From NCBI GenBank assembly GCA_014843695.1, contig CM026395.1, positions 51,504,557-51,568,556 of the forward strand: a DNA stretch of 64,000 bases. Direction: 5' to 3'. The DNA is from Archivesica marissinica (taxonomy: Eukaryota; Mollusca; Bivalvia; Venerida; Vesicomyidae). Of the stretch, positions 4,301 to 43,194 are shown piece after piece. The position numbers and the translations under genes are program-made. Each line of letters starts with the position of its first letter. Positions within the stretch are counted from its first letter, which is position 1. The notes beneath the pieces are model-generated. The model did not search any database and had not been told where the DNA came from. It saw only the letters and a list, made by a program, of their open reading frames with translations.

Positions 4301-7300
4301 TGGTTAGTTACTGGCTATATTTGTGGTTGGTTACTGGCTATATTTGTGGTTGGTTACTGGCTATATTTGTGGCTGGTTACCAACTATATTTGTTGTTGGT
4401 TACCGGCTACATTTGTGGTTAGTTACCAGCTATATTTGTTGTTGGTTACCGGCTATATTTGTGGCTGGTTACCTGCTATATTTGTGGTTTGTTACCGGCT
4501 ACATTTGTGGTTAGTTACTGGCTATATCTGTGGCTAGTTACCTGCTATATTTGTGGTTGGTTACCAACTATATTTGTTGTTGGTTACCGGCTATATTTGT
4601 GGTTAGTTACTGGCTATATTTGTGGTTGGTTACCAACTACATTTGTGGTTAGTTACCGGCTACATTTATTGTTGGTTACTGGCTATATTTGTGGTTGGTT
4701 ACTGGTTATATTTGTAGAGTAGACACGTATTTTAGAAAATTATTGATGGTGAACTTCAGTTAGCCCATTACTGCAGAGAGATAGTCATTATGCTGTGGAT
4801 CTTTGTACACTCAGCAATCCGTATCAATGCGCAATCAGCATATCTATCCCCCCCCCCCCCCGTTACCAGGGCGATTATGGTCTCTTTCCACTATTTACTG
4901 TCAGTATTTTGTTTGACTGTTACCGTATTTTCTCCACTATAAGACGATCTCCCCTAACTTTAAATCAGTGGTATTTTGCATAGACCCGCGTATATCACTG
5001 GTTGAGAATGTGGAAATCACTCAGCTGTAAAGATCAAACTAATTGTACTGTAAAAGCACTGTAAATTATGTCAAATCATTAAAAAAATACACTGATGTAC
5101 AACAATAAATTTGATTTGCTAAAATGCTATTGACAAGTTCAGTTTACAAGTTTTATAGTTTTGTTACAACATTTCAGTTATTTCAAAGGTCATCAATTAT
5201 TGAGTTGGAACAAACTGATTAAAAATAATTACTGTGTCTTGTGCCTGTGCATAAAATAGATAGAAATATGACCTGATATATATAAATTACAGTTTATTTA
5301 ACGTCACTACTGGTTGCTAATATAAACAACACCTTTCCTGGACAGGCTCCTGCAGTTAACCAGTACTTGGTGCACCAACCTCTGTATGAAACTTCCAACT
5401 TTTTCATTTAAATGAGACACGGCCTGAGTGGGGCTCGAACCTGTGACCATCAGTGATGATAGGTTACAGTGGTATTTTGTAACATTTATTGTGACCATTT
5501 ATATCACAGATAAGTGACTTTGGACTGTCAGAATGGAGAACGATTACGATGGCATATAGCAAGACCCCGCTGGTTCAAGGCCCACGTTGTGGTACAATCA
5601 CCCACGTACCCCCAGAAGTTTTCGAAGACATCAACCAGAAAGGAAAAGTTGAAGAGGATGTGTATTCATTTGGGATAACTGTGTGGGAAATCTTCACAGG
5701 GAAGTCTCCATTTAAAGGTATACAGAACAGAACAAACAGTACAGAACATATGTGACCCACCATGACAAAATCAGTCTTAAGTCGGAAAAAATAAATAATG
5801 AGTTAACTATGCCATCATATAGGTATAAATATAAGCTTTCTAGTGATATCAGTTCATTCATGTAGCTCGTTTCAGTCCAAAGTTATGACCATTTGAATAA
5901 TGGACTTCGCGTGATTAATATTCCGAGAAAACGGCTGTCAAAGATTTTCAGAAATTCTGACTTATCTTAACAAAATTTGGAGACGCAGTGAAATCAAAAC
6001 ACCATAGCAACCAATATGTTCCACATGACACAACTAGTCATGTTTGGTATCAAATTAAAGGTAAATGTCCATTCTTTAAAATGCCACTTTGCCGAACTTA
6101 GTAGTATCCATAGTGGTTCAGCTGTTCTAGCATAAATACAATAGTAATAATTAATAATAATAAAAAAATTTAAAATATTTTTTATTGACTTAAATTTTAT
6201 TTACTTAACCCATACCCTGATATATACGTATTTCTACGTGTTATCAGGCTCCTGATATATACGTATGTCTACGTGTTATCGGGCACCTGATATATACGTA
6301 TTTCTCCCTGTTATCGGGCACCTGATATAATACGTATATATACGACCACACCAGTCACCTGATAAATACGTGTTTTTACGTGTCCGTTTTAAATCCATCA
6401 TTTTCGCTAATTAAATACGACAGAAAAGCGGTCAAAATATGTTTCAATAAATGTCTGAAGTTAAAATGAAAATAAATCTAAAAATAGCAATTACTCATAA
6501 TTAGCTTGCATAAAAATATCTATGTATTTAGTAAATTTCCACTGTGAAGGCCAATTGACCTTTCTGCCGATTTTGATTGACAGCTGGCGTTAGCCAATCG
6601 CATCGCACCATTCGCGCACACCCCCGGCAACGGTTTATCGCCGCCATCTTGTTAGACAAAGATGGCAGCGATAAACCGTTGCCGGGGGTGTGCGCGAATG
6701 GTGCGATGTGATTGGCTAACGCCAGCTGTCAATCAAAATCGGCAGAAAGGTCAATTCATGCGTATGGTCTAAAATCAGAATTAAAAAGTATTTGTTGACA
6801 GAAAAAGGTCTTCCGGTCGGGACCACGAGGGCATATCAGTGATCTGGTCGATTTTACCTAGTTTCTCGTCGATGTTTCTGCATGCATGTTTCAATTTCGT
6901 TGGTTGCCTTTATTATATATTACTTACTATATGACCATAGGCCAAAAATAAAAATAAATGTTTGTGTCTGGTGCCTGTGGCTACACGCAACACAGGTACA
7001 GATAACGGTGTGTTAAAATTTCACACAACAAATCAGCAGATAAAGGTTCTACACTCGTCTAGGTTTACCATTTACCTATATATGACTGATTTGCATCGAA
7101 ATGAATCTAAATATTAACCTATATAATGAATAATCGTCATGAAATCACACCGAAAATCGTTTTGTTTCTATCCAATCGTCTGTGAACATAGGAACAGGTG
7201 CGCACTTGCAGATCACGTGGTCTTTATCGGCCAATGGATGAGTGGGAATCACGTTTACGTCGCAACCGAAGAGATTTTTGAAAAAATTCGATTGATTTAA

Positions 7301-10300
7301 AGTCGTTGATTAGATGGAAGCATATAAGATCTTACTTCAAAAATAGCATCAGCTGAAAATACGTCATCTCTAGATTATTTCGGTACCAAATACATGGGGC
7401 CAAACCGCGGGACTGTATCATTGAAGGCCATCGGAAAACACCGCCTACACGGCTTAGATCTTTTGTTTCACTGCGATTAATAACAATGGCAATTAACACC
7501 AAGCTAATTAAAATGTGTTTTTAATGCCTTAAATTACACAAATACGTGCTTCTATCACATTTATTATAAAGATAAATGATTATAAAATGCCATTATACAA
7601 TAATCTGAAAATTGTTAAAATACCATTTTGTTGACTTATAATGTAATTATCTGCCTTACGATAATCCCGACTTACGACTGATTTTGATATGGCGGGTCAC
7701 ATATTGTTTATTAGACTTAAAGCAGCATTACATCGTAATAAAGGATGTTTTGGGTAAAATATAATACTAATGTGTGTGTGTTTACAAAAATCGAAATAGT
7801 CGCTCAGAAACGATAAAATTCCAATAAATTTAAACCGTCGTATACGCGAATTTGTTTATCAACACACGAAATGTCAACACGCACAGCGCGCATGCGTGAA
7901 ACAACAGAGGATGTAGAAAACGTATATTTTGAACATGAAAGACTATCTATCTATCTTGGGGATGTAGAAATGTCCCTAAAAGACTTAGCTAACAGAGGTA
8001 TGAATCAACATATCAAGTAATTTAATTAAAAGACAACGTGGGACAAATGTGGACGATGCGTTCCAGATGTAAAAAAGTGCGGATAATGTGTTCCGGTTGT
8101 AAACAAGTGCGTGACCGATCGACTCGGAAAGTCCTACTTTTCGGTTTCGAGTTTGTTTTATCGCAAAAAAACACTGTTTACCAAATGAACATAAGCATAC
8201 AAAGTATGTTAGAATGTGTAGCAGCATTGCTACCCATACGTAAAATCTTAATTTTTCAAATATCTTTTATTTCATACGATGTAATGCTGCTTTAAGCATT
8301 ACATAGCTCATCATCATAATAATACATATACAATTTACATGCAATGAATAAAAAAGTCATAAATATATGAAGAGTGTAAAGCCTGGTTTCCATGAAGCAT
8401 AGTTTATACGCGTCAATTTTGTGAGCGCTACTTTTGTCGGCGCATACGTGCGGTGAAAATCGTTTCCATGTAAACGGATATTACTTGCAGCTTTTATTAT
8501 TATACGTGAGTGGATTTCGGTCATAAATTCAAAATGGCGATGTCTAAACATGCACTCACGTTGAAGCTCGTACTTTCACAGTTAATAGAACAGCTAGATG
8601 CGGACGATATGTTGCTTGCCTTAGTCCGCCTCCATGGTCAAGTGGTTAAGGTCGCTGACTTGGCCGTGTCTCATTTATATGAAAAAGTTGGCAGTTTCTT
8701 ACGGAGGTTGGTGCACCCAAGTACTGGTTAACCGCTGGAGCCTGTCCAGGAAAGGTGTTATTAGGTAAACTGCCTCATATTTGGCCAGTGCAAGTTGAAG
8801 ACATATTCTGTTTCAGAGCGATTTCTTTTCTAAAACTTAATTATGGATGGCATTAAATTTTAAACACATTTTTAAAAAAAAAAAGTAAAAATGTTTTAGC
8901 ACTCGTTTATAAGACGGTGAAAAAATAGCGGTATCAAATTTGGCAACAAATCCATACAATATCATCTATTCAAAGTGATCACTATAAACACCGGGCCAGA
9001 ATAAATGTCAAAAGCGTACGTAAGAAACTAACCTAACATACACCCTTCTACAGTCTACATCCGTTATGTCAGTCATTTTATATATAACTGGCTCCGTTTA
9101 TATTGAATTTCGTTAAGTCAAACTATGGTTGTGTCGAAGTATTTTGTTCGGTCCAACGGAATTCGACATAACGGATGTAGACTGTAGATATGTCTATTTA
9201 TAGACAGTGAACTTAATCAAACAATCCCAATGTTTTGATATCGTCTGATGACACAGATTGAATGGGACACAACTCTGATTTTGATTTTGTAAACAAATGA
9301 TTTGAATAGTGCCAAAAATTAAGAGGACATCACTCCGTCGCATTCAATATTGCTGAGGTTCTGGAAGTGATTCTAGTGTTTTAACAATCTTGGGGGGGGG
9401 GGGGGGGCTTTTTTAAATGGATTTTCATGTCAAATAGTTTTGTTCAAGGTATGAATGTAGGTCCTCCAAGACACTATTATATGGCCAATCTAAGATTAGC
9501 CTATGGTGCTTATCAAAATGGAATGACAATATTCATAAAAATGTTGTTTGTTGTTGAATCATAACACCATCCAGGGCACCGTAGCAATACCTCAAGAATA
9601 GGGTAACCTCAAATGAATATTGTAAACAAACATGGCTGTCTGCCGAGGATTGTCACTTGGAAAATCATCGATGTTGTCTAAACAAAATTAACTGTAAGCA
9701 TATCTTTTGCTTTTGATGAATGAGCTAATGCTGATTAAAGTCTTAGTACCTCGAGAACTAGGAACACCAGTGTCTATACTGTTAATTTCGGTAAAAATAC
9801 ACAGGAATCATTCGTACATGTTTTTTCATAGTTATTGCGGCATCCAGAGATAATCCACATGTTCGGACTAGTCGTGAATACATTACAATGTACCAGGCAT
9901 ATAGCGGTCAGCATATGAAACAATCGTAAAAAATTATATTCCATTTACATATTCCAGGTTGCCATAATAATATTGAACTGATACGCAGTGCTGTTCTTTG
10001 TAACCAGCGCCCTGATTTGTCAGATTTAGTGAGTCCGTGTCCAAAGCTGATAGTCGACATGATAAAATGTTCGTGGGACAAACAACCAAGGAAGAGGCCG
10101 ACTTTTAAGGGTATGTCACTAGGCCTTTCCCCGGAAAAAAAAATCAGTGCATTTGTTTCGTGGCAATTTCTATGGAGGGAGAATTCTGCAATTTCAGAGT
10201 AAAATGTTTACAGGGTAAAATAATAATGCTTATTTTACTATTATTTCGATACATTCAATTAAGACGCTAAGTATTTGTTGATCTCAGGAGCACTAATACA

Positions 10301-13300: not shown

Positions 13301-16300
13301 TTCCTACGCATCAGAACTACAAACCATGTTTTATTCGCCACTAAATAACCGAAATACAAACGTTACTTCTTAAATAATTCTTTCAAGCGAGGAAGCTATC
13401 CAACTGGTTTGCGGTTGGTCGGTGGTTCAGACTGTGCCTGATAAACTGATGGATCTGTAGTCTAGTGGTTAACATGTTGGACTGGTAATCCGTCTGGCCC
13501 TAATAAAATTAAGAGTCTTTCAGATGGAACTTTAAACCAAGGTCTCGTGTCGGTGCTTTACACCATGCACATAAAAGAACCAGAGGAGACTCTGGAATGG
13601 GTCTCTGTCTGTATCATTGCACTATCCTCCAAAAATCTAAAATGACTAATCTCTTCAGGAGACGTAACTCATATGGGCAACCGGTAGCGACAATAAATAA
13701 ACGAAAAACACATAACACACACATCCAGGGTCTTCCTTCACCAATAACAGCTAGGGTGTAGCCATATACCCTAAGCTGTTGGTGCTACTTTAAACCCCAA
13801 AAACAAATAAACATCGGCCCTTTAACCCTTTGTATTAGTTTAATCATATTTTATTGCTTGATTCGTTTTACATATACATGTGAATACAAAATATAACAAA
13901 TTAAATAAAGGCAAACGGATCGGGCCACTAGTTCTAGCCACATTAGTTACAGCCCCCCCTTTAAAAATTTGTATTATAGATATGGAGAAGCAGATCAATC
14001 CAGAGTATCTGGCCCTGCAGCATATACTACCAGACTCAATTCGGTACATCAGACAAGAGATTCTGAGTAAATATGTAAGTATGATATAGCCAAGACAGGA
14101 AATTGTGAGTAAATATGTAAGTATGATATAGCCAAGACAAGAGATTCTGAGTTAATATGTAAGTATGATATAGCCAAGACAGGAAATTGTGAGTAAATAT
14201 GTAAGTATGATATAGCCAAGACAAGAGATTCTGAGTTAATATGTAAGTATGATATAGCCATAGCAAGAGATTCTGAGTGAATATGTAAGTATGATATAGC
14301 CAAGACAAGAGATTCTGAGTGAATATGTAAGTATGATATAGCCATAGCAAGAGATTGTGAGTGAATATGTTAGTATGATATAGCAATAGCAAGAGATTCT
14401 GAGTTAATATGTAAGTATGATATAGCCAAGACAAGAGATTCTGAGTTAATATGTTAGTATGATATAGCCAAGACAAGAGATTCTGAGTGAATATGTAAGT
14501 ATGATATAGCCATAGCAAGAGATTCTGAGTGAATATGTAAGTATGATATAGCCATAGCAAGAGATTCTGAGTTAATATGTAAGTATGATATAGCAATGGC
14601 AAGAGATTCTGAGTTAATATGTAAGTATGATATAGCCATAGCAAGAGATTCTGAGTGAATATGTTAGTATGATATAGCCATAGCAAGAGATTCTGAGTTA
14701 ATATGTAAGTATGATATAGCAATGGCAAGAGATTCTGAGTTAATATGTAAGTATGATATAGCCATAGCAAGAGATTCTGAGTGAATATGTAAGTATGATA
14801 TAGCCAAGACAAGAGATTCTGAGTGAATATGTAAGTATGATATAGCCATAGCAAGAGATTCTGAGTGAATATGTAAGTATGATATAGCCAAGACAAGAGA
14901 TTCTGAGTTAATATGTTAGTATGATATAGCCAAGACAAGAGATTCTGAGTGAATATGTAAGTATGATATAGCCATAGCAAGAGATTCTGAGTTAATATGT
15001 AAGTATGATATAGCCAAGACAAGAGATTCTGAGTTAATATGTAAGTATGATATAGCCAAGACAAGAGATTCTGAGTTAATATGTAAGTATGATATAGCCA
15101 TAGCAAGATATTCTGAGTGAATATGTAAGTATGATATAGCCATAGCAAGAGATTCTGAGTGAATATGTAAGTATGATATAGCCAAGATAAGAGATTCTGA
15201 GTGAATATGTAAGTATGATATAGCCATAGCAAGAGATTCTGAGTGAATATGTAAGTATGATATAGCCAAGACAAGAGATTCTGAGTGAATATGTAAGTAT
15301 GATATAGCAATAGCAAGAGATTCTGAGTGAATATGTAAGTATGATATAGCCATAGCAAGAGATTCTGCGTGAATATGTAAGTATGATATAGCCATAGCAA
15401 GAGATTCTGAGTGAATATGTAAGTATAATATAGCCATAGCAAGAGATTATGATTGAATATGTAAGTATGATATAGCCAAAGCAAGAGATTCTGAGTTAAT
15501 ATGTAAGTATGATATAGCCATAGCAAGAGATTCTGAGTTAATATGTAAGTATGATATAGCCAAGACAAGAGATTCTGAGTTAATATGTAAGTATGATATA
15601 GCCATAGCAAGAGATTCTGAGTAAATATGTAAGTATGATATAGCCATAGCAAGAGATTCTGAGTTAATATGTAAGTATGATATAGCCAAGACAAGAGATT
15701 CTGAGTTAATATGTAAGTATGATATAGCCAAGACAAGAGATTCTGAGTTAATATGTAAGTATGATATAGCTAAGACAAGAGATTCTGAGTTAATATGTAA
15801 GTATGATATAGCAATAGCAAGAGATTCTGAGTGAATATGTAAGTATGATATAGCCATAGCAAGAGATTCTGAGTGAATATGTAAGTATGATATAGCCAAG
15901 ACAAGAGATTCTGAGTTAATATGTTAGTATGATATAGCTAAGACAAGAGATTCTGAGTGAATATGTAAGTATGATATAGCCAAGACAAGAGATTCTGAGT
16001 GAATATGTAAGTATGATACAGCTAAGACAAGAGATTCTGAGTGAATATGTTAGTATGATATAGCTAAGACAAGAGATTCTGAGTGAATATGTTAGTATGA
16101 TATAGCCATAGCAAGATATTCTGAGTGAATATGTAAGTATGATATAGCCATAGCAAGCGATTCTGAGTGAATATGTAAGTATGATATAGCCAAGACAAGA
16201 GATTCTGAGTTAATATGTAAGTATGATATAGCCATAGCAAGAGATTCTGAGTGAGATTCTGAGTGAATATGTAAGTATGATATAGCCACACCTAGAGATT

Positions 16301-19300
16301 CTGAGTGAATATGTAAGTATGATATAGCCAAGACAAGAGATTCTGAGTTACTATGTAAGTATGATATAGCCATAGTAAGAGATTCTGAGTGAGATTCTGA
16401 GTGAATATGTAAGTATGATATAGCCACACCTAGAGATTCTGAGTGAATATGTAAGTATGATATAACCACACCTAGAGATTCTGAGTGAATATGTAAGTAT
16501 GATATAGCCACACCTAGAGATTCTGAGTGAATATGTAAGTATGATACAGCCAAAGCAAGAGATTCTGAGTGAATATGTAAGTATGATATAACCAAGACAA
16601 GAGATTCTGAGTGAATATGTAAGTATGATATAGCCAAGACAAGAGATTCTGAGTTAATATGTAAGTATGATATAGCCATAGCAACAGATTCTGAGTTAAT
16701 ATGTAAGTATGATATAACCATAGCAAGAGATTCTGAGTTAATATGTTAGTATGATATAGCCATAGCAAGAGATTCTGAGTTAATATGTAAGTATGATATA
16801 GCCATAGCAAGAGATTCTGAGTTAATATGTAAGTATGATATAGCCATAGCAAGAGATTCTGAGTGAATATGTAAGTATGATATAGCCAAGACAAGAGATT
16901 CTGAGTTAATATGTAAGTATGATATAGCTAAGACAAGAGATTCTGAGTTAATATGTAAGTATGATATAGCCAAGACAAGAGATTCTGAGTTAATATGTAA
17001 GTATGATATAGCTAAGACAAGAGATTCTGAGTTAATATGTAAGTATGATATAGCCATAGCAAGAGATTCTGAGTGAATATGTAAGTATGATATAGCCATA
17101 GCAAGAGATTCTGAGTGAATATGTTAGTATGATATAGCAATAGCAAGAGATTATGAGTGAATATGTAAGTATGATATAGCCATAGCAAGAGATTCTGAGT
17201 GAATATGTAAGTATGATATAGCCATAGCAAGAGATTCTGAGTTAATATGTAAGTATGATATAGCCAAAGCAAGAGATTCTGAGTTAATATGTAAGTATGA
17301 TATAGCCATAGCAAGAGATTCTGAGTTAATATGTAAGTATGATATAGCCAAGACAAGAGATTCTGAGTTAATATGTAAGTATGATATAGCCAAGACAAGA
17401 GATTCTGAGTGAATATGTTAGTATGATATAGCCACACCTAGAGATTCTGAGTGAATATGTAAGTATGATATAGCCATAGCAAGAGATTCTGAGTGAGGTT
17501 CTGAGTGAATATGTAAGTATGATATAGCCAAGACAAGAGATTCTGAGTGAATATGTAAGTATGATATAGCCATAGCAAGAGATTCTGAGTGAATATGTAA
17601 GTATGATATAGCCATAGCAAGAGATTCTGAGTTAATATGTAAGTATGATATAGCCATAGCAAGAGATTCTGAGTGAGATTCTGAGTGAATATGTAAGTAT
17701 GATAGAGCCACACCTAGAGATTCTGAGTGAATATGTAAGTATGATATAGCCAAGACAAAATATTCTGAGTGAATATGTTAGTATGATATAACCAAGACAA
17801 GAGATTCTGAGTGAATATGTAAGTATGATATAGCCATAGCAAGAGATTCTGAGTTAATATGTAAGTATGATATAGCCACACCTAGAGATTCTGAGTGAAT
17901 ATGTAAGTATGATATAGCCAAGACAAGAGATTCTGAGTGAATATGTTAGTATGATATAGCCACACCTAGAGATTCTGAGTGAATATGTAAGTATGATATA
18001 GCCATAGCAAGAGATTCTGAGTTAATATGTAAGTATGATATAGCCATAGCAAGAGATTCTGAGTGCATATGTAAGTATGATATAGCCACACCTAGAGATT
18101 CTGAGTGAATATGTAAGTATGATATAGCCATAGCAAGAGATTCTGAGTGAATACGTAAGTATGATATAGCCATAGCAAGAGATTCTGAGTGCATATGTAA
18201 GTATGATATAGCCACACCTAGAGATTCTGAGTGAATATGTAAGTATGATATAGCCATAGCAAGAGATTCTGAGTGCATATGTAAGTATGATATAGCCACA
18301 CCTAGAGATTCTGAGTTAATATGTTAGTATGATATAGCTAAGACAAGAGATTCTGAGTGAATATGTAAGTATGATATAGCCAAGACAAGAGATTCTGAGT
18401 GAATATGTAAGTATGATACAGCTAAGACAAGAGATTCTGAGTGAATATGTTAGTATGATATAGCTAAGACAAGAGATTCTGAGTGAATATGTTAGTATGA
18501 TATAGCCATAGCAAGATATTCTGAGTGAATATGTAAGTATGATATAGCCATAGCAAGCGATTCTGAGTGAATATGTAAGTATGATATAGCCAAGACAAGA
18601 GATTCTGAGTTAATATGTAAGTATGATATAGCCATAGCAAGAGATTCTGAGTGAGATTCTGAGTGAATATGTAAGTATGATATAGCCACACCTAGAGATT
18701 CTGAGTGAATATGTAAGTATGATATAGCCAAGACAAGAGATTCTGAGTTAATATGTAAGTATGATATAGCCATAGTAAGAGATTCTGAGTGAGATTCTGA
18801 GTGAATATGTAAGTATGATATAGCCACACCTAGAGATTCTGAGTGAATATGTAAGTATGATATAACCACACCTAGAGATTCTGAGTGAATATGTAAGTAT
18901 GATATAGCCACACCTAGAGATTCTGAGTGAATATGTAAGTATGATACAGCCAAAGCAAGAGATTCTGAGTGAATATGTAAGTATGATATAACCAAGACAA
19001 GAGATTCTGAGTGAATATGTAAGTATGATATAGCCAAGACAAGAGATTCTGAGTTAATATGTAAGTATGATATAGCCATAGCAACAGATTCTGAGTTAAT
19101 ATGTAAGTATGATATAACCATAGCAAGAGATTCTGAGTTAATATGTTAGTATGATATAGCCATAGCAAGAGATTCTGAGTTAATATGTAAGTATGATATA
19201 GCCATAGCAAGAGATTCTGAGTTAATATGTAAGTATGATATAGCCATAGCAAGAGATTCTGAGTGAATATGTAAGTATGATATAGCCAAGACAAGAGATT

Positions 19301-22300
19301 CTGAGTTAATATGTAAGTATGATATAGCTAAGACAAGAGATTCTGAGTTAATATGTAAGTATGATATAGCCAAGACAAGAGATTCTGAGTTAATATGTAA
19401 GTATGATATAGCTAAGACAAGAGATTCTGAGTTAATATGTAAGTATGATATAGCCATAGCAAGAGATTCTGAGTGAATATGTAAGTATGATATAGCCATA
19501 GCAAGAGATTCTGAGTGAATATGTTAGTATGATATAGCAATAGCAAGAGATTATGAGTGAATATGTAAGTATGATATAGCCATAGCAAGAGATTCTGAGT
19601 GAATATGTAAGTATGATATAGCCATAGCAAGAGATTCTGAGTTAATATGTAAGTATGATATAGCCAAAGCAAGAGATTCTGAGTTAATATGTAAGTATGA
19701 TATAGCCATAGCAAGAGATTCTGAGTTAATATGTAAGTATGATATAGCCAAGACAAGAGATTCTGAGTTAATATGTAAGTATGATATAGCCAAGACAAGA
19801 GATTCTGAGTGAATATGTTAGTATGATATAGCCACACCTAGAGATTCTGAGTGAATATGTAAGTATGATATAGCCATAGCAAGAGATTCTGAGTGAGGTT
19901 CTGAGTGAATATGTAAGTATGATATAGCCACACCTAGAGATTCTGAGTGAATATGTAAGTATGATATAGCCAAAATAAGAGATTCTGAGTGAATATGTTA
20001 GTATGATATAGCTAAGACAAGAGATTCTGAGTGAATATGTTAGTATGATATAGCTAAGACAAGAGATTCTGAGTGAGATTCTGAGTTAATATGTAAGTAT
20101 GATATAGCCAAGACAAAATATTCTGAGTGAATATGTTAGTATGATATAACCAAGACAAGAGATTCTGAGTGAATATGTAAGTATGATATAGCCATAGCAA
20201 GAGATTCTGAGTTAATATGTAAGTATGATATAGCCAAGACAAGAGATTCTGAGTGAATATGTTAGTATGCTATAGCCACACCTAGAGATTCTGAGTGAAT
20301 ATGTAAGTATGATATAGCCAAGACAAGAGATTCTGAGTGAATATGTAAGTATGATATAGCCATAGCAAGAGATTCTGAGTGAATATGTAAGTATGATATA
20401 GCCATAGCAAGAGATTCTGAGTTAATATGTAAGTATGATATAGCCATAGCAAGAGATTCTGAGTGAGATTCTGAGTGAATATGTAAGTATGATAGAGCCA
20501 CACCTAGAGATTCTGAGTGAATATGTAAGTATGATATAGCCAAGACAAAATATTCTGAGTGAATATGTTAGTATGATATAACCAAGACAAGAGATTCTGA
20601 GTGAATATGTAAGTATGATATAGCCATAGCAAGAGATTCTGAGTTAATATGTAAGTATGATATAGCCACACCTAGAGATTCTGAGTGAATATGTAAGTAT
20701 GATATAGCCAAGACAAGAGATTCTGAGTGAATATGTTAGTATGATATAGCCACACCTAGAGATTCTGAGTGAATATGTAAGTATGATATAGCCATAGCAA
20801 GAGATTCTGAGTTAATATGTAAGTATGATATAGCCATAGCAAGAGATTCTGAGTGCATATGTAAGTATGATATAGCCACACCTAGAGATTCTGAGTGAAT
20901 ATGTAAGTATGATATAGCCATAGCAAGAGATTCTGAGTGAATACGTAAGTATGATATAGCCATAGCAAGAGATTCTGAGTGCATATGTAAGTATGATATA
21001 GCCACACCTAGAGATTCTGAGTGAATATGTAAGTATGATATAGCCATAGCAAGAGATTCTGAGTGAATATGTAAGTATGATATAGCCACACCTAGAGATT
21101 CTGAGTGAATATGTAAGTATGATATAGCCAAAATAAGAGATTCTTAGTGAATATGTTAGTATGATATAGCTAAGACAAGAGATTCTGAGTGAATATGTTA
21201 GTATGATATAGCTAAGACAAGAGATTCTGAGTGAGATTCTGAGTTAATATGTAAGTATGATATAGCCAAGACAAAATATTCTGAGTGAATATGTTAGTAT
21301 GATATAACCAAGACAAGAGATTCTGAGTGAATATGTAAGTATGATATAGCCATAGCAAGAGATTCTGAGTTAATATGTAAGTATGATATAGCCAAGACAA
21401 GAGATTCTGAGTTAATATGTAAGTATGATATAGCCATAGCAAGAGATTCTGAGTTAATATGTAAGTATGATATAGCCAAGACAAGAGATTCTGAGTGAAT
21501 ATGTAAGTATGATATAGCCAAGACAAGAGATTCTGAGTGAATATGTAAGTATGATATAGCCAAGACAAGAGATTCTGAGTTAATATGTAAGTATGATATA
21601 GCCATAGCAAGAGATTCTGAGTTAATATGTAAGTATGATATAGCCATAGCAAGAGATTCTGAGTGAATATGTTAGTATGATATAGCCATAGCAAGAGATT
21701 CTGAGTTAATATGTAAGTATGATATAGCCAAGACAAGAGATTCTGAGTTAATATGTAAGTATGATATAGCCAAGACAAGAGATTCTGAGTGAATATGTAA
21801 GTATGATATAGACCTAGCAAGAGATTCTGAGTGAATATGTAAGTATGATATAGCCATAGCAAGAGATTCTGAGTTAATATGTAAGTATGATATAGCCATA
21901 GCAAGAGATTCTGAGTGAATATGTAAGTATGATATAGCCAAGACAAGAGATTCTGAGTTAATATGTAAGTATGATATAGCCATAGCAAGAGATTCTGAGT
22001 GAATATGTAAGTATGATATAGCCAAGACAAGAGATTTTGAGTGAATATGTAAGTATGATATAGCCAGAGCAAGAGATTCTGAGTTAATATGTAAGTATGA
22101 TATAGACCTAGCAAGAGATTCTGAGTGAATATGTAAGTATGATATAGCCATAGCAAGAGATTCTGAGTGAATATGTAAGTATGATATAGCCAAGACAAGA
22201 GATTCTGAGTTAATATGTTAGTATGATATAGCCATAGCAAGAGATTCTGAGTGAATATGTAAGTATGATATAGCCAAGACAAGAGATTCTGAGTGAATAT

Positions 22301-25300
22301 GTAAGTATGATATAGCCATAGCAAGAGATTCTGAGTGAATATGTAAGTATGATATAGCCAAGACAAGAGATTCTGAGTGAATATGTAAGTATGATATAGC
22401 CATAGCAAGCGATTCTGAGTGAATATGTAAGTATGATATAGCCATAGCAAGAGATTCTGAGTTAATATGTAAGTATGATATAGCCAAGACAAGAGATTCT
22501 GAGTTAATATGTTAGTATGATATAGCCATAGCAAGAGATTCTGAATGAATATGTAAGTATGATATAGCCATAGCAAGAGATTCTGAGTGAATATGTAAGT
22601 ATGATATAGCCATAGCAAGAGATTCTGAGTGAATATGTAAGTATGATATAGCCAAGACAAGAGATTCTGAGTAAATATGTAAGTATGATATAGCCATAGC
22701 AAGAGATTCTGAGTTAATATGTAAGTATGATATAGCCAAGACAAGAGATTCTGAGTAAATATGTAAGTATGATATAACCATAGCAAGAGATTCTGAGTTA
22801 ATATGTTAGTATGATATAGCCATAGCAAGAGATTCTGAGTGAATATGTAAGTATGATATAGCCAAGACAAGAGATTCTGAGTTAATATGTTAGTATGATA
22901 TAGCCATAGCAAGAGATTCTGAATGAATATGTAAGTATGATATAGCCATAGCAAGAGATTCTGAGTGAATATGTAAGTATGATATAGCCATAGCAAGAGA
23001 TTCTGAGTGAATATGTAAGTATGATATAGCCAAGACAAGAGATTCTGAGTAAATATGTAAGTATGATATAGCCATAGCAAGAGATTCTGAGTTAATATGT
23101 AAGTATGATATAGCCAAGACCAGAGATTCTGAGTGAATATGTAAGTATGATATAGCCAATACAAGAGATTCTGAGTAAATATGTAAGTATGATATAGCCA
23201 TAGCAAGAGATTTTGAGTTAATATGTTAGTATGATATAGCCATAGCAAGAGATTCTGAGTGAATATGTAAGTATGATATAGCCAAGACAAGAGATTCTGA
23301 GTGAATATGTAAGTATGATATAGCCAAGACAAGAGATTCTGAGTGAATATGTTAGTATGATATAGCCAAGACAAGATATTCTGAGTGAATATGTAAGTAT
23401 GATATAGCCATAGCAAGAGATTCTGAGTTAATATGTAAGTATGATATAGCCATAGCAAGAGATTCTGAGTTAATATGTAAGTATGATATAGCCAAGACAA
23501 GAGATTCTGAGTTAATATGTTAGTATGATATAGCCATAGCAAGAGATTCTGAGTTAATATGTAAGTATGATATAGCCATAGCAAGAGATTCTGAGTTAAT
23601 ATGTAAGTATGATATAGTCATAGCAAGAGATTCTGAGTTAATATGTAAGTATGATATAGCCATAGCAAGAGATTCTGAGTTAATATGTAAGTATGATATA
23701 GCCATAGCAAGAGATTCTGAGTTAATATGTAAGTATGATATAGCCATAGCAAGAGATTCTGAGTGAGATTCTGAGTGAATATGTTAGTATGATATAGTCA
23801 TAGCAAGAGATTCTGAGTGCATATGTTAGTATGATATAGTCATAGCAAGAGATTCTGAGTGAATATGTAAGTATGATATAGCCATAGCAAGAGATTCTGA
23901 GTGAGATTCTGAGTTAATATGTTAGTATGATATAGTCATAGCAAGAGATTCTGAGTGAATATGTAAGTATGATATAGCCATAGCAAGAGATTCTGAGTTA
24001 ATATGTAAGTATGATATAGCCATAGCAAGAGATTCTGAGTGAGATTCTGAGTTAATATGTTAGTATGATATAGTCATAGCAAGAGATTCTGAGTGAATAT
24101 GTAAGTATGATATAGCTAAGACAAGAGATTCTGAGTGAATATGTAAGTATGATATAGCCATAGCAAGAGATTCTGAGTGAATATGTAAGTATGATATAGC
24201 CATAGCAAGAGATTCTGAGTTAATATGTAAGTATGATATAGCCATAGCAAGAGATTCTGAGTTAATATGTAAGTATGATATAGCCATAGCAAGAGATTCT
24301 GAGTTAATATGTAAGTATGATATAGCCATAGCAAGAGATTCTGAGTGAATATGTAAGTATGATATAGCCATAGCAAGAGATTCTGAGTTAATATGTAAGT
24401 ATGATATAGCCATAGCAAGAGATTCTGAGTTAATATGTAAGTATGATATAGCTAAGACAAGAGATTCTGAGTGAGATTATGAGTGAATATGTAAGTATGA
24501 TATAGCCAAGACAAGAGATTCTGAGTTAATATGTAAGTATGATATAGCTAAGACAAGAGATTCTGAGTGAGATTATGAGTGAATATGTAAGTATGATATA
24601 GCCAAGACAAGATATTCTGAGTGAATATGTAAGTATGATATAGCCAAGACAAGAGATTCTGAGTGAATATGTAAGTATGATATAGCCAAGACAAGAGATT
24701 CTGAGTGAATATGTTAGTACATGTATGATTTAGCCAAGATATGAGATTCTTAGTTAATTTGTAAGTACATCTATGATTTAGCCAAGGCCTAAGATTCTTA
24801 GTTAATTTGTAAGTACATGTATGATTTAGCCAAGGCCTGAGATTCTTAGTTAATATCTAAGTACATGTATGATTTAGCCAAGGCCTGCAGTTCTTAGTTA
24901 ATTTGTAAGTACATGTATGATTTAGCCAAGGCCTGAGATTTTGAGTGAATATGTAATTAAGATGGAGTCAAATCAAGAGATTCTTATCGAATATTGTAGT
25001 ATGATGTAGACAATACAATTCTATTCATTAACATTCTGCCTTAAATCATGCATACTTACCTGCCCATTAGCCAATGTCATAGATTGATTCAAATCACATT
25101 GTCATTAATTAAGGGGACATAACTTCCCAAATTGTTTCCATGTATGTGTAACCTAGAGGGTAGAATTACGGAAAAACGACTTTGAATGACATCTCCTTTG
25201 ACAGCTGTCGACAGAATTTAATCAAACTTAGCCTCAAATTCCATAGCAAAGACCTCTACCAGTTATGTTCAAATAAGGTCAAACTGTCAAAAACTTGGGG

Positions 25301-28300
25301 TCAAAATAACAAAAATCTTTATTCCACATTACCGCCATACAATACCATTATTGCTTCACACATATAGCCTCGTTCCATGCTGTTATTTATTCCCATAGAT
25401 ATTAAGTATATAGTACAGTGTACCTATTGCTTATCAGCAGTATGGAGATACAATGGGTATGTAGTACAGTGTGCCTATTGCTTATCAGCAGTATGGAGAT
25501 ACAATGGGTCTGTAGTACAGTGTACCTATTGCTTATCAGCAGTATGGAGATACAATGGGTATGTAGTACAGTGTGCCCATTGCTTATCAGCAGTATGGAG
25601 ATACAATGGGTATGTAGTACAGTGTACCTATTGCTTATCAGCAGTATGGAGATACAATGGGTATGTAGTACAGTGTGCCTATTGCTTATCAGCAGTATGG
25701 AGATACAATGGACAATGGGTATGTAGTACAGTGTCCCTATTGCTTATCAGCAGAATGTAGATACAATGGGTATGTAGTACAGTGTGCCTATTGCTTATCA
25801 GCAGTATGGATATACAATGGGTATGTAGTACAGTGTACCTATTGCTTATCAGCAGAATGTAGATACAATGGGTATGTAGTACAGTGTGCCTATTGCTTAT
25901 CAGCAGTATGGAGATACAATGGGTATGTAGTACAGTGTGCCTATTGCTTATCAGCAGTGTGGAGATACAATGGGTATGTAGTACAGTGTCCCTATTGCTT
26001 ATCAGCAGAATGTAGATACAATGGACAATGGGTATGTAGTACAGTGTCCCTATTGCTTATCAGCAGAATGTAGATACAATGGACAATGGGTATGTAGTAC
26101 AGTGTGCCTATTGCTTATCAGCAGAATGTAGATACAATGGACAATGGGTATGTAGTACAGTGTGCCTATTGCTTATCAGCAGTATGGAGATACAATGGGT
26201 ATGTAGTACAGTGTGCCTATTGCTTATCAGCAGTGTGGAGATACAATGGGTATGTAGTACAGTGTCCCTATTGCTTATCAGCAGAATGTAGATACAATGG
26301 ACAATGGGTATGTAGTACAGTGTCCCTATTGCTTATCAGCAGAATGTAGATACAATGGACAATGGGTATGTAGTACAGTGTGCCTATTGCTTATCAGCAG
26401 AATGTAGATACAATGGACAATGGGTATGTAGTACAGTGTGCCTATTGCTTATCAGCAGAATGGAGATAAGATGAGTAAATGGCCTCGTCTGTTGTGGGGT
26501 AAATGGTTAAACAACATCTGGATAAAATATGACGAAACTTGTCAAGTAGCATCATGTTTATTATTTATTTTAAAAAGAAATATCCTCAGAAGCTATTTTT
26601 TAGAATTTGATAAAACTAGGTCATTGTGACAAACTAATGAAAAACTGTCCAACATCATTTGATCACACATTATGCAAGTACTCCTGGTAATTACCTCTGT
26701 CCCAAAACCAGGTCATAAAAAAGATATATTAATGTAAAATCTTTCTCTCAAGGTCAGTAATGAATCAAACTTAAGTGTTAAGCATTCTTGTAATTACCTC
26801 TACCAAGTCTTACCGGTCCCTAAGTTAAGCATTCTTGTAATTACCTCTACCAAGTCTTACCGGTCCCTAAGTTAAGCATTCTTGTAATTACCTCTACCAA
26901 GTCTTACCGGTCCCTAAGTTAAGCATTCTTGTAATTACCTCTACCAAGTCTTACCGGTCCCTAAGCTAAGTCTTAAAAGAACATATTAAGTAAAACCTTT
27001 AAAATGGTACATCGTCGCAAGGGCAAAATGTAATCAAACTGGATCTTACATTCTGGTAATTACCTCTACCAAGTTTTATCTTTAATAGAATTTGGTCACA
27101 TTAATCCACCTCCCTGCGTTTATGCTATTATATTGTCATATTAACCCGCCTCCCTACATTTATGCTATTATATTGTCACATTAACCCGCCTCCCTACGTT
27201 TATGCTATTATATTGTCACATTAACCCCCCTCCCTACGTTTATGCTATTATATTGTCATATTAACCTGCCTCCCTACGTTTATGCTATTATATTGTCACA
27301 TTAACCTGCCTCCCTACGTTTATGCTATTATATTGTCACATTTATGCTATTATATTGTCATATTAACCTGCCTCCCTATGTTTATGCTATTATATTGTCA
27401 CATTAACCTGCCTCCCTATGTTTATGCTATTATATTGTCACATTAACCTGCCTCCCTATGTTTATGCTATTATATTGTCACATTTATGCTATTATATTGT
27501 CATATTAACCCGCCTCCCTACGTTTATGCTATTATATTGTCATATTAACCCCCCTCCCTACGTTTATACTATTATATTGTCACATTAACCTGCCTCCCTA
27601 CGTTTATGCTATTATATTGTCACATTAACCTGCCTCCCTACGTTTATGCTATATTGTCACATTAACCTGCCTCCCTACGTTTATGCTATTATATTGTCAT
27701 ATTAACCTGCCTCCCTACGTTTATGCTATTATATTGTCATATTTATGCTATTATATTGTCACATTAACCCCCCTCCCTACGTTTATGCTATTATATTGTC
27801 ATATTAACCTGCCTCCCTACGTTTATGCTATTATATTGTCACATTAACCTGCCTCCCTACGTTTATGCTATTAACACACAACAAAACCCCCCCAAAACTA
27901 TTATATTGTCATATTAACCCGCCTCCCTAGTTTATGCTATATACAAAACCCCCCCACACTATTATATTGTCACATTAACCTGCCTCCCTACGTTTATGCT
28001 ATTATATTGTCATATTAACCTGCCTCCCTACGTTTATGCTATTATATTGTCATATTTATGCTATTATATGTCACATTAACCCCCTCCCTACGTTTATGCT
28101 ATTATATTGTCATATTAACCTGCCTCCCTACGTTTATGCTATTATATTGTCACATTAACCTGCCTCCCTACGTTTATGCTATTATATTGTCACATTTATG
28201 CTATTATATTGTCATATTAACCTGCCTCCCTATGTTTATGCTATTATATTGTCATATTAACCCGCCTCCCTACGTTTATGCTATTATATTGTCATATTAA

Positions 28301-31300
28301 CCCCCCTCCCTATGTTTATGCTATTATATTGTCATATTAACCTGCCTCCCTACGTTTATGCTATTATATTGTCACATTAACCTGCCTCCCTACGTTTATG
28401 CTATTATATTGTCACATTAACCTGCCTCCCTACGTTTATGCTATTATATTGTCATATTAACCTGCCTCCCTACGTTTATGCTATTATATTGTCATATTTA
28501 TGCTATTATATTGTCACATTAACCCCCCTCCCTACGTTTATGCTATTATATTGTCATATTAACCTGCCTCCCTACGTTTATGCTATTATATTGTCATATT
28601 AACCTGCCTCCCTACGTTTATGCTATTATATTGTCATATCTATGCTATTATATTGTCATATTAACCTGCCTCCCTATGTTTATGCTATTATATTGTCACA
28701 TTAACCCCCCTCCCTATGTTTATGCTATTATATTGTCACATTAACCCCCCTCCCTACGTTTATACTATTGTATTGTCATATTAACCCACCTCCCTACGTT
28801 TATGCTATTATATTGTATCACGTATTTTCAGAATGAGACTCATGAAAAATACGAATGTACCAAGCATTTTGACAATCAGCCCGAATCGCCTGTAAAAATG
28901 GACGGCACTGCAACAAATTACATGCCAGAGGCACGACCACAAGTGAATGATCAAGTTGCTGAAGTTACTGCTGACACTTCAAGAGAACTTGGTGCAGAAA
29001 CCTGTAGTCATACGCAAACTAATGCAGAAAGTGTAGAGAACAGGCTTAATGTGATGTCTCTTAATGCACCTGATTCACCAACTAACCAACAGAGTACGGT
29101 TGTGCACTCAGAGAGAGTAGCGACTAATCCTGGAGCATCAAGAAAGATTGTTCTTGTCCATGTGCCTATCAATGAGACTGAACAAAATAGAGAAGATAAT
29201 TCTGATTCTACACGTGGAAAGGAAGAATCTGGAATAGGTTTATCTGGATTTGTCTCACTGAAGGATAAGCAGTATGTTCCAGGCAGTGAAATCAGTCATC
29301 CGCATGGACCTTTTGCTCAACCAGCGGCCACACTTGTAGGAGAACCAGGTGTTGATGAGTATCTGGGTCAAAATACAAGAGCAGAATTAAATGATGTTTC
29401 CGGAGCGGAAGCTGTCAACATGTTTGTGACCAACTTGAGCGCTACCAATCCAGAGACTTTGTTACAAAATCCAGAAACACTCCAGAATATGTTACGGTAA
29501 GCAGTCAATGACTACCTGTAGGAATGGTCAAAAATGGTCTTGTTGACATCTTTTCTCCAAACTCAGGTTCAGCTGAGTGTAATTCTCAGACTCACCCAAT
29601 CTAATCACTTGAGCTCAAATTTGATATCTGAGAACAGTTCTATAACCTCAAGCTCTTTAATCTTTAACTAGTGCCCTTTTGAGACTGGTTTATAATTGGT
29701 GATTTTTATTCTGAGATGGGGATTAGTGCAGTGCAAGCTGTATTTGTAGCTGACTAGGGTACATGACTCGTGAATGCTATTGGTTCATTTCTATAACCAG
29801 TAATTTCCATTCATAAATGAGATCATTCAAGGCATTTAAATTTCACGTTGCCTCGTCTCTCTCCCTCGTGGCGATGAATTCCATCAGGAATGAGGTCTCG
29901 AGAGTGATTAATAGAAGATGTAAGAACTTGTTTCACAATCGAACTAAAATAAATTTGTATAAACTAAGCGAAAACAAGAGAGCTAGGATGGTACTGGATC
30001 ACTCACCGAAGTCCATACAAGAGTGTCAGGATGGTACTGGATCACTCACCCTGGTATACACAAGAGTGTCAGGATGGTACTAGATCACTCACCCTAGTAT
30101 ATACAAGAGTGTCAGGGTGGTACTAGATCACTCACCCTAGTATATACAAGAGTGTCAGGATGGTACTAGATCACTCACCCTAGTCTATACAAGAGTGTCA
30201 GGATGGTACTAGATCACTCACCCTAGTCTATACAAGAGTGTCAGGGTGGTACTGGATCACTCACCCTAGTATATACAAGAGTGTCAGGATGGTACTGGGT
30301 CACTCACCCTGGTATATACAAGAGTGTCAGGATGGTACTAGATCACTCACCCTAGTACATACAAGAGTGTCAGGATGGTACTAGATCACTCACCCTAGTA
30401 TATACAAGAGTGTCAGGATGGTACTAGATCACTCACCCTAGTATATACAAGAGTGTCAGGATGGTACTAGATCACTCACCCTAGTATATACAAGAGTGTC
30501 AGGATGGTACTAGATCACTCACCCTAGTATATACAAGAGTGTCAGGATGGTACTAGATCACTCACCCTAGTATATACAAGAGTGTCAGGATGGTACTAGA
30601 TCACTCACCCTAGTATATACAAGAGTGTCAGGATGGTACTAGATCACTCACCCTAGTATATACAAGAGTGTCAGGATGGTACTAGATCACTCACCCTAGT
30701 ATATACAAGAGTGTCAGGATGGTACTAGATCACTCACCCTAGTATATACAAGAGTGTCAGGATGGTACTAGATCACTCACCCTAGTATATACAAGAGTGT
30801 CAGGATGGTACTAGATCACTCACCCTGGTATATACAAGAGTGTCAGGGTGGTACTGGATCACTCACCCTAGTATATACAAGAGTGTCAGGGTGGTACTAG
30901 ATCACTCACCCTAGTATATACAAGAGTGTCAGGGTGGTACTGGATCACTCACCCTAGTATATACAAGAGTGTCAGGGTGGTACTGGATCACTCACCCTAG
31001 TATATACAAGAGTGTCAGGGTGGTACTGGATCACTCACCCTAGTATATACAAGAGTGTCAGGGTGGTACTAGATCACTCACCCTAGTATATACAAGTGTG
31101 TCAAGGTGGTACTGGATCACTCACCCTAGTATATACAAGAGTGTCAGGATGGTACTGGATCACTCACCCTAGTCTATACAAGAGTGTCAGGGTGGTACTA
31201 GATCACTCACCCTAGTATATACAAGAGTGTCAGGGTGGTACTAGATCACTCACCCTGGTATATACAAGTGTGTCAGGGTGGTACTGGATCACTCACCCTA

Positions 31301-34300
31301 GTATATACAAGAGTGTCAGGGTGGTACTAGATCACTCACCGAAGTCCATACAAGAGTGTCAGGGTGGTACTGGATCACTCACCCTGGTATATACAAGAGT
31401 GTCAGGGTGGTACTGGATCACTCACCCTAGTATATACAAGAGTGTCAGGGTGGTACTGGATCACTCACCCTAGTATATACAAGAGTGTCAGGGTGGTACT
31501 GGATCACTCACCCTAGTCTATACAAGAGTGTCAGGGTGGTACTGGATCACTCACCCTGGTCTATACAAGAGTGTCAGGGTGGTACTGGATCACTCACCCT
31601 GGTATATACAAGAGTGTCAGGGTGGTACTGGGTCACTCACCCTGGTATATTCAAGTGTGTCAGGGTGGTACTGGATCACTCACCCTGGTATATACAAGAG
31701 TGTCAGGATGGTACTAGATCACTCACCCTGGTATATACAAGAGTGTCAGGGTGGTACTAGATCACTCACCCTGGTATATACAAGAGTGTCAGGGTGGTAC
31801 TGGATCACTCACCCTGGGATATACAAGTGTGTCAGGGTGGTACTGGGTCACTCACCCTAGTATATACAAGAGTGTCAGGGTGGTACTGGGTCACTCACCC
31901 TAGTATATACAAGTGTGTCAGGGTGGTACTAGGTCACTCACCCTGGTATATACAAGAGTGTCAGGGTGGTACTGGATCACTCACCCTGGTATATACAAGT
32001 GTGTCAGGGTGGTACTAGATCACTCACCCTAGTATATACAATTGTGTCAGGGTGGTACTGGATCACTCACCCTGGTATATACAAGTGTGTCAGGGTGGTA
32101 CTGGATCACTCACCCTAGTATATACAAGTGTGTCAGGGTGGTACTTGATCACTCACCCTGGTATATACAAGTGTGTCAGGGTGGTACTGGATCACTCACC
32201 CTAGTATATACAAGAGTGTTAGGGTGGTACTGGGTCACTCACCCTAGTATATACAAGAGTGTTAGGGTGGTACTTGATCACTAACCCTAGTATATACAAG
32301 AGTGTCAGGGTGGTACTGGATCATTACTAACTTTATGCCTGTAACGAAGGCTGTCTATGCCAATCTTATGCTCTATGTTTAATATTTTCCTACTGGCTTA
32401 CGATTGTATTTCAGTTTGATCCAATCACCTACTGCAGAAAGAGATGGTCAGCTGGTATTCAACTCTCGGCTCTCGGAGTTGACTCGGCCTCTTTCAGGAG
32501 CTATCCCCCGATTTGCTAACACTTGCAGTAGAGAAATACTTGAAGGGTGAGATATTGTCATGTATGATATGGTCCATTTAATATATTATATTTATCACAC
32601 AGCTTTGTTTGTATTCAGTGTAATACAGTCATATCACAATTTCTTATGTGAACACACGTGTAATAACACCTGGAAGGATTCTGATTGGTTGAGAGAATAA
32701 TACATATAATTTGTAAATTAATCTTTAAAGTATGCACATTTCTATTTTAATGGGTACATAACGTTAATGGTAAGACAAACTACAATTTAAAAGAAGACTC
32801 GACGCAATTATAATGTTGTTTAAAACAAAAATATAAGGCAATTTAGTGACGTCGTGACAATTTGCGCTGACAGTTGGCGCCAAAATGAACGTAGCAACGT
32901 TATTTTGTGGAAAAATAAAATTAAAACCCAATATTTAATGTTATAAAAAGGATCTTACATCTATCTATCTTCACCTCACGGGGATGTAAACATGTAAGCC
33001 AAAAGACTCGCTTAATAGCAAAATTCCAAACTCGTTTCATAAGATATTATATGTAAGATCCAATATATATCGATTTAAGCTGGAATTATGAGGTAAGATA
33101 ATTAAGCACTGTGATAAGCGTAGTGTCAAGAGTATGGCTAAGTTTGTTCTGATTAATTATATGTAATATATAGCTTGCATCAGAGATAAGAAAACCACAC
33201 CCTAAAATATAATGTATAGTTTGTATTAGAGAAAACCACACCCTAAAATATAATGTATAGTTTGTATTAGAGAAAACCACACCATAAAATATAATGTATA
33301 GTTTGTATTAGAGAAAACCACACCATAAAATGTAATGTATAGTTTGTATTAGAGAAAACCACACCATAAAATATAATGTATAGTTGTATTAGAGAAAACC
33401 ACACCATAAAATGTAATGTATAGTTTGTATTAGAGAAAACCACACCATAAAATGTAATGTATAGTTTGTATTAGAGAAAACCACACCATAAAATATAATG
33501 TATAGTTTGTATTAGAGAAAACCACACCATAAAATATAATGTATAGCTTGTATTAGAGAAAACCACACCATAAAATGTAATGTATAGTTTGTATTAGAGA
33601 AAACCACACCATAAAATATAATGTATAGTTTGTATCAAAGAAAACCACACCATAAAATGTAATGTATAGTTTGTATCAAAGGAAACTACACCATAAAATA
33701 TAATGTATAGTTTGTATTAGAGAAAACCACACCATAAAATATAATGTATAGTTTGTATCAAAGAAAACCACACCATAAAATGTAATGTATAGTTTGTATC
33801 AAAGAAAACCACACCATAAAATATAATGTATAGTTTGTATTAGAGAAAACCACACCATAAAATATAATGTATAGTTTGTATTAGAGAAAACCACACCATA
33901 AAATATAATGTATAGTTTGTATCAGAGAAAACCACACCCTAAAATGTAATGTATAGCTTGTATCAGAGATCGTGTTGTATAGCTGGTATCAGAGATAAAA
34001 AGACCACACCCTTTGATCTAATCAATGTAAATTTGTTTTCAGAACTGATTCAAATATTGTGTCTGTGGATGAGCTCAGAGGTCAGACTTTGAACAGCAGC
34101 AGGCAGACGGCAATACCTGTACCATCAGGACAGCAGGTTATGGGTTCCAGCCAAGCAGCAGACACAGTTAGAATGCTCCCTGCACCTGACCAGACAGCTC
34201 AGACTTTGAACAGCAGCAGGCAGACGGCAGTACCTGTACCATCAGGACAGCAGGTTATGGGTTCCAACCAAGCAGCAGACACAGTTAGAATGCTCCCTGC

Positions 34301-42825: not shown

Positions 42826-43056
42826 TTAGCAGTGGTTAGCGCTCTCGCTTCTCACCAATGCAACCCGGGTTCGATCCACAGACCGGGAAGTATGTGAGAT
42901 GGTACGGTGGTCGCCAGATCGGATAGGTGGGTTTTCTCCGGGTACTCCGGTTTCCTCCCACACGAATGACCACACTTACACCTGCGCCAATGAGAGTGAT
43001 TAATATAAGTTGTTAAAATTTGCTTCGCAATCGTAAAATAAAGTTTAAAAAAAAAA
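42826..43056 (+). mobile_element. tRNA-derived SINE (family B)
   Basis: GATTAGCAGTGGTTAGCGC (A box) and CCCGGGTTCGATCC (B box), the same body as 701-954, ending CGCAATCGTAAAATAAAG plus an A run. Confidence 0.83.
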
Positions 43057-43194
43057 GTGCTAAAATAATTTAAAACAAAAAGAGATTAATTATTTTTTTA
43101 ATGTGTTAAAATTTAATGGTATCCATAATTATCTTTTAGAAAATAAAACTCTCTGACACTGAACATTTCTTCAACTGGCAAAACATGCAGTTTA

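Follow-up and report, generated by a model that had tools for sequence, protein, structure and literature searches.

One intron of a predicted kinase gene in the bivalve Archivesica marissinica opens with some 250 tandem copies of a 42-bp sequence that spans its own 5' exon-intron boundary. We consider it highly probable that this array is a mirage minisatellite of the kind known from amphioxus, that is, that the boundary between exon d and the following intron (intron d-e) was duplicated in tandem and expanded by turnover, with the first donor remaining the productive one. The stretch of DNA analyzed (the window) is 64,000 nt of assembly GCA_014843695.1 (CM026395.1, positions 51,504,557 to 51,568,556 of the forward strand), and all coordinates below are positions within it. 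The array and its first donor are as follows.

14051 to 25009, + strand: 42-bp minisatellite of about 256 units, with 253 GT[A/T]AGTA donor copies (TRF, alignment and counts)
14075 to 14082, + strand: 5' splice site of intron d-e, GTAAGTAT, supported by homologs (homolog alignment; U1 pairing of -7.3 kcal/mol)

TRF placed the array at 14051 to 24767 (period 42, 251.7 copies, score 13640, with the length as assembled), and a wraparound alignment extended it to 25009, giving 256 units with 69 distinct unit sequences. A preliminary description of this DNA had proposed about 250 tandem copies of an exon-intron boundary, which agrees with the roughly 252 to 256 units found by the two methods, and its further statement that a single intron carries hundreds of tandem 5' splice-site copies was borne out at about 250. 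Unit 1 is composed of 24 bases of exon d, AGACAAGAGATTCTGAGTAAATAT, which encode RQEILSKY, and 18 bases of intron d-e; the sequence thereby confirmed the earlier reading of the first copy as the last 24 coding bases (ending in SKY) plus the first 18 intron bases.

The gene in the window is, judged from protein matches, a bivalve RIPK1-like kinase gene of the cell-death type. The best PDB matches of its kinase part were RIPK1 chains (E = 1.8e-30); RIPK2 followed closely (1e-29). Among the best 120 of 199 matches in a protein search, the nearest relative was a protein of Ruditapes philippinarum (62% over 87% of the query), followed by a match of 54% over the whole query, then by two Branchiostoma proteins in order of E-value and, after these, by Mactra antiquata (52% over 87% of the query). 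The following coding pieces were recognized.

1205 to 1368, + strand: exon for the kinase N-lobe (tblastn of protein P0001, 67% identical at 1203 to 1364; splice signals)
3776 to 3912, + strand: exon a, with the catalytic loop HLDLKADN (homologs, splice signals)
5510 to 5717, + strand: exon b, DFG region of the kinase (homologs, splice signals)
9958 to 10110, + strand: exon c, kinase (homologs, splice signals)
13980 to 14074, + strand: exon d, end of the kinase C-lobe and start of the linker (homologs, splice signals)
28832 to 29496, + strand: exon e, joined to exon d (homologs, splice signals)
34043 to 35330, + strand: exon f, with an in-frame 117-bp coding repeat
35803 to 35887, + strand: exon g (homolog alignment)
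41126 to 41272, + strand: exon h, with an RHIM-like core (homolog alignment)
42268 to 42420, + strand: second half of a death domain (PF00531, E = 7.6e-4, 20 bits, below the cut-off of 22.6)

The putative RHIM core in exon h, recognized by its motif and aligned to homologs, sits between the kinase and the death-domain piece, and the homologs carry [LM]Q[IV]G plus a later M at this place. At 42268 to 42375 the second half of the death domain is 86% identical to residues 1014 to 1049 of P0001. Even a sensitive search of the window failed to find the first half, which relatives have, so completeness of the gene cannot be asserted; this half may have diverged, been lost or lie in a missed exon. 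Within exon f, five in-frame copies of 117 bp (39 residues) occupy 34082 to 34664 and may differ in length between individuals.

Exon d is bounded upstream by an acceptor AG ending at 13979 and joins 28832 in phase 0. Six homologous proteins, including those of Ruditapes, Mactra, Sinanodonta and Mytilus, align through the 14074/28832 junction, across which the Ruditapes sequence reads YFKYIRTQIEAFWQEDPESTDHYECTMH; the six were taken from the 199 matches, and the Branchiostoma proteins P0003 and P0004 were omitted though they rank above four of the six by E-value. From these alignments we infer that the first donor, at 14075, is in productive use. Identity at SKY itself is low across the homologs. 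Two of the eight repeated codons, R190 and I193, are invariant in all seven sequences, the other repeated codons vary, and T207, beyond the d/e junction, is likewise invariant in seven of seven. The invariance of R190 and I193 argues that the exon came first and that the array grew from its donor, which would make the coding sequence of exon d older than the array that grew out of it. Local birth of the 42-bp unit at this locus is not proved by this.

Large arrays are usual in this region, since 33 tandem arrays, 32 of them besides the 42-bp array, make up 50.5% of the window (the 33 arrays are a manual merge of 105 TRF rows, from which overlapping sub-rows, 6180 to 6208 and 43034 to 43086 were dropped). 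Intron d-e, 14,757 bases long, is 94% tandem repeat. The repeats that concern splice sites, apart from the 42-bp array, are these.

25406 to 26468, + strand: 51-bp array with a different unit, in intron d-e (TRF)
27095 to 28816, + strand: 40-bp array whose end lies 15 bases short of exon e (TRF and counts)
3909 to 4207, + strand: small degenerate tandem repeat, unit about 52 bp, with the exon a donor in its first unit (TRF at 3909 to 4061; degenerate units to 4207)

The 40-bp array contains a single AG in 1722 bases, where base composition would predict 37, and 20 TATTAAC words. An expectation from base composition misleads here because a tandem array repeats one unit; by our own estimate the expectation per unit is about 0.86 AG and the chance of its absence about 0.4, and we therefore make no claim of mirrored signals on the acceptor side of the intron. 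The array at 36815 to 37943 is similarly poor in AG (3 against 46 expected), and branch-point-like words occur in other arrays as well (75, 28 and 21 in three of these). The 40-bp array could provide the branch site, and chance acting on one unit can explain its composition. At exon a, the donor within the degenerate repeat has CAAG at the exon end followed by GTATTACC, and GTATTACC is kept in some copies; with four exon bases in the unit, this placement may be coincidence. Elsewhere in the window, 54114 to 54776 is a G-rich irregular array of GGGGTAAGAATG units and a possible G-quadruplex-forming stretch.

Two of the eight scored donors lie in the terminal unit of an array (circular-shift P of 0.05, in a test run without the exon at 1205 to 1368, which was found later). 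At least one does so in 34% of circular shifts, and we accordingly make no claim of a special placement of arrays at donors. That frequency would also suit a satellite that came first, spread from elsewhere and supplied the end of exon d by capture. We regard this order of events as extremely unlikely: bivalves reaching to Mytilus and Sinanodonta keep the R and I among the repeated codons, and the array opens inside exon d with no repeat found just upstream, either by TRF or on reading the sequence.

The internal structure of the 42-bp array bears on how it grew, and two parts of it stand out.

24737 to 25009, + strand: six diverged units at the 3' edge of the array, 14 to 21% off consensus
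16380 to 21047, + strand: recent long duplications inside the array

Mean divergence is 3.0 to 5.8% in 15 of 16 blocks, compared with 14 to 21% in the last six units, most of which carry a 6-base insert. At a lag of 56 units, 27 consecutive units are identical (16380 to 17530 and 18780 to 19930), and at a lag of 65 units, 17 are (17531 to 18257 and 20321 to 21047). The diverged edge, the 69 distinct sequences among 256 units and the identical blocks at these two lags make the array fit concerted turnover. Under the mirage reading, a 42-bp stretch spanning the end of exon d and the start of its intron would have been duplicated in tandem and then expanded to about 256 units by ordinary minisatellite turnover, probably through unequal exchange or replication slippage and with recent one-step duplications of 17 to 27 units, and the donor copies would have ridden along as part of the unit. 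The identical runs of 27 and 17 consecutive units could also be taken as signs that a shorter true array was inflated during assembly, and the 27-unit block could be a product of assembly. Inflation, which would be compatible with the mirage explanation, appears very unlikely: against it stand the 69 distinct units together with the structured, diverged 3' edge, the absence of any N in the window and the 32 other arrays found there.

A minus-strand open frame of 801 codons at 21212 to 23617 is a side effect of the stop-free frame of the 42-bp unit, and no gene. Just beyond the array, on the minus strand at 25045 to 25065, GCAGGTAAGTATGC forms a textbook donor with GTAAGTAT; outside the array GTAAGTAT is present nowhere else in the window, with none on the + strand and this one on the minus strand (at 25052).

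Exact counts on the + strand over 14051 to 24960 gave 210 GTAAGTAT, 213 GTAAGT and 40 GTTAGT, and 253 GT[A/T]AGTA donors lie inside the array, the first included. Counting and scoring the donor of each unit had been suggested in the preliminary description. When this was done, 208 of 256 scored donor-like sites read TAT followed by GTAAGTAT, with a predicted U1 duplex of -7.3 kcal/mol, the same as that of the homolog-supported donor; the commonest variant, GTTAGT (40 copies), fell short of this, at -3.4 or -2.9 kcal/mol. Pairing of -7.3 kcal/mol is reached by 2.8% of the 3461 GTs outside the array, and the eight scored donors of the gene, 14075 included, range from -5.6 to -9.9 kcal/mol. The earlier proposal that the donor is kept in most units stands as regards the 210 exact copies and is not supported as regards any special retention, GTAAGTAT ranking 13th among 35 8-mer windows of the unit by exact retention and 40 copies carrying the weakening GTTAGT. 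(The ranking comes from an alignment in which six-base inserts smear a few units at the edge: there all 256 units appear with GT, yet at least one edge unit has CT; the direct count is 210 GTAAGTAT.) When alternative states are counted per column, the total for the donor window is 4, which puts it in the quietest three out of 42 cyclic windows; this hints weakly at constraint and is suggestive only. Because these two measures disagree, we make no claim of selection on the donor: we read the donor copies as reflecting the general likeness among units, and selection for the donor is not supported.

The consequence of using a later donor is set by a stop codon near the start of the array.

14087 to 14089, + strand: TAG in frame within the intronic bases of unit 1; it stops every later-donor reading

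When the 253 donors were joined in silico to exon e, one (14075) left the frame open, and all 252 later ones ended in SKY-VSMI followed by a stop, because unit 1 carries the in-frame TAG 12 bases past the start of the intron. Since the 252 later donors share this early stop, only the first donor yields the full protein. Retention of intron d-e is predicted to give the same product. With a later donor the protein would be cut off past the kinase domain, after the added residues VSMI. Messages with an early stop and several exons downstream are expected to decay, and mRNA from a later donor would probably be marked for this fate. Productive splicing would join the first donor, 14075, to the acceptor before 28832, and this donor probably wins through exon definition of the 95-base exon. 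Spliced at the first six in-register donors, exon d would measure 95, 137, 179, 221, 263 or 305 bases, two GTGAGT sites would make it 125 or 209 bases, and exon size could restrict donor choice to the first few.

The equal U1 pairing of 208 of the 256 scored sites, the one identical truncated product from all 252 later donors and the few alternative states in the donor columns would all suit a regulatory decoy, in which array donors bind U1 and tune productive splicing and the length of the array sets the ratio of full-length to kinase-only or decayed products. We judge this quite improbable, given that 40 sites carry the weakening GTTAGT and that retention of GTAAGTAT is not top-ranked. A database search for the truncated, kinase-only form returned 18 proteins at E<=1e-20, of which 13 came from Saccoglossus or Branchiostoma, with no bivalve among these named sources (13 of the 18 matches); in addition, the available parts of the amphioxus reports describe mirages without disturbance of regular splicing. 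A role of decoy donors in isoform control is possible but, on the sequence, unsupported. The stronger proposal, of the array as a splicing dial of variable length whose U1-binding donors set the share of kinase-only (lacking the RHIM and death domain) or decayed products and so tune signaling, is in our estimation very improbable. Were it true, array length, altered by minisatellite mutation, would tune innate immune or cell-death signaling between clams, and the 27095 to 28816 array, with its branch-point-like words and near-zero AG content, would mean that both ends of the intron consist of repeated splice signals.

The mirage reading places the clam array among systems already described. 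Canestro et al. (2002) is a work cited for amphioxus mirages, and Turri, Cuin and Porter are said to have found in 1995 that a minisatellite of human IFI6 (6-16, G1P3) gives multiple splice donor sites. In the available parts of the amphioxus reports, mirages are tandem exon-intron boundary repeats, many of them carrying splice signals, in the Adh3, globin and TnC genes, with imperfect repeats akin to them in PGBD5; their units undergo concerted turnover that leaves out the edges, regular splicing continues, Adh3 units measure 10 to 72 bp, and BflGb6 haplotypes have 3 and 6 units (PMC3087553, PMC3902484). A further report describes the use of two downstream repeat units of the IFI6 minisatellite as donors (PMC4526556), and in human segmental duplications exon-intron boundary repeats, with units of about 30 bp repeated four times on average, are described as altering splicing and as able to create introns (PMC2812944). 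The preliminary description knew of no such array in print; beside the amphioxus mirages and the IFI6 minisatellite, as far as these sources go, the clam array is not new in kind. The open-licence literature searched, as partly available, yielded no mollusc mirage, which is weak evidence of absence.

Like the mirages of amphioxus Adh3, BflGb6, BflGb9 and TnC, as these sources present them, the clam unit spans the exon-intron boundary of a real gene (24 + 18 bases, with six homologs), carries splice signals in its copies (253 GT[A/T]AGTA, with 213 GTAAGT and 40 GTTAGT) and shows turnover with the edge spared, seen at the 3' side; the 5' edge is exon and cannot show it. Unlike BflGb6, with its reported 3 and 6 units, the clam array has about 256 units over 10.9 kb, and it is found in a bivalve, so that the mirage kind, on the sources available, is carried from lancelets to a bivalve at far larger copy number. 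The repeats of human segmental duplications share the position at an exon-intron boundary, with the 30-bp units repeated four times on average. IFI6 resembles the clam in that a minisatellite supplies several donor sites (in the clam, predicted donor-like sites); the downstream donors of IFI6 reportedly serve in splicing and yield isoforms, whereas the later clam donors are predicted to stop after four codons, keeping no open frame in 252 of 252 cases. The clam array would show a minisatellite growing from the edge of an exon with the reading frame of that exon intact, and it offers a natural test of how one donor is chosen when some 200 equal predicted U1 pairings follow, mostly at 42-base steps, with a clean read-out because the full protein comes only from the first donor. 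Judged against the known systems as partly available, its kind is already known as mirages, and the clam array is striking for its size and for its clean reading-frame consequence.
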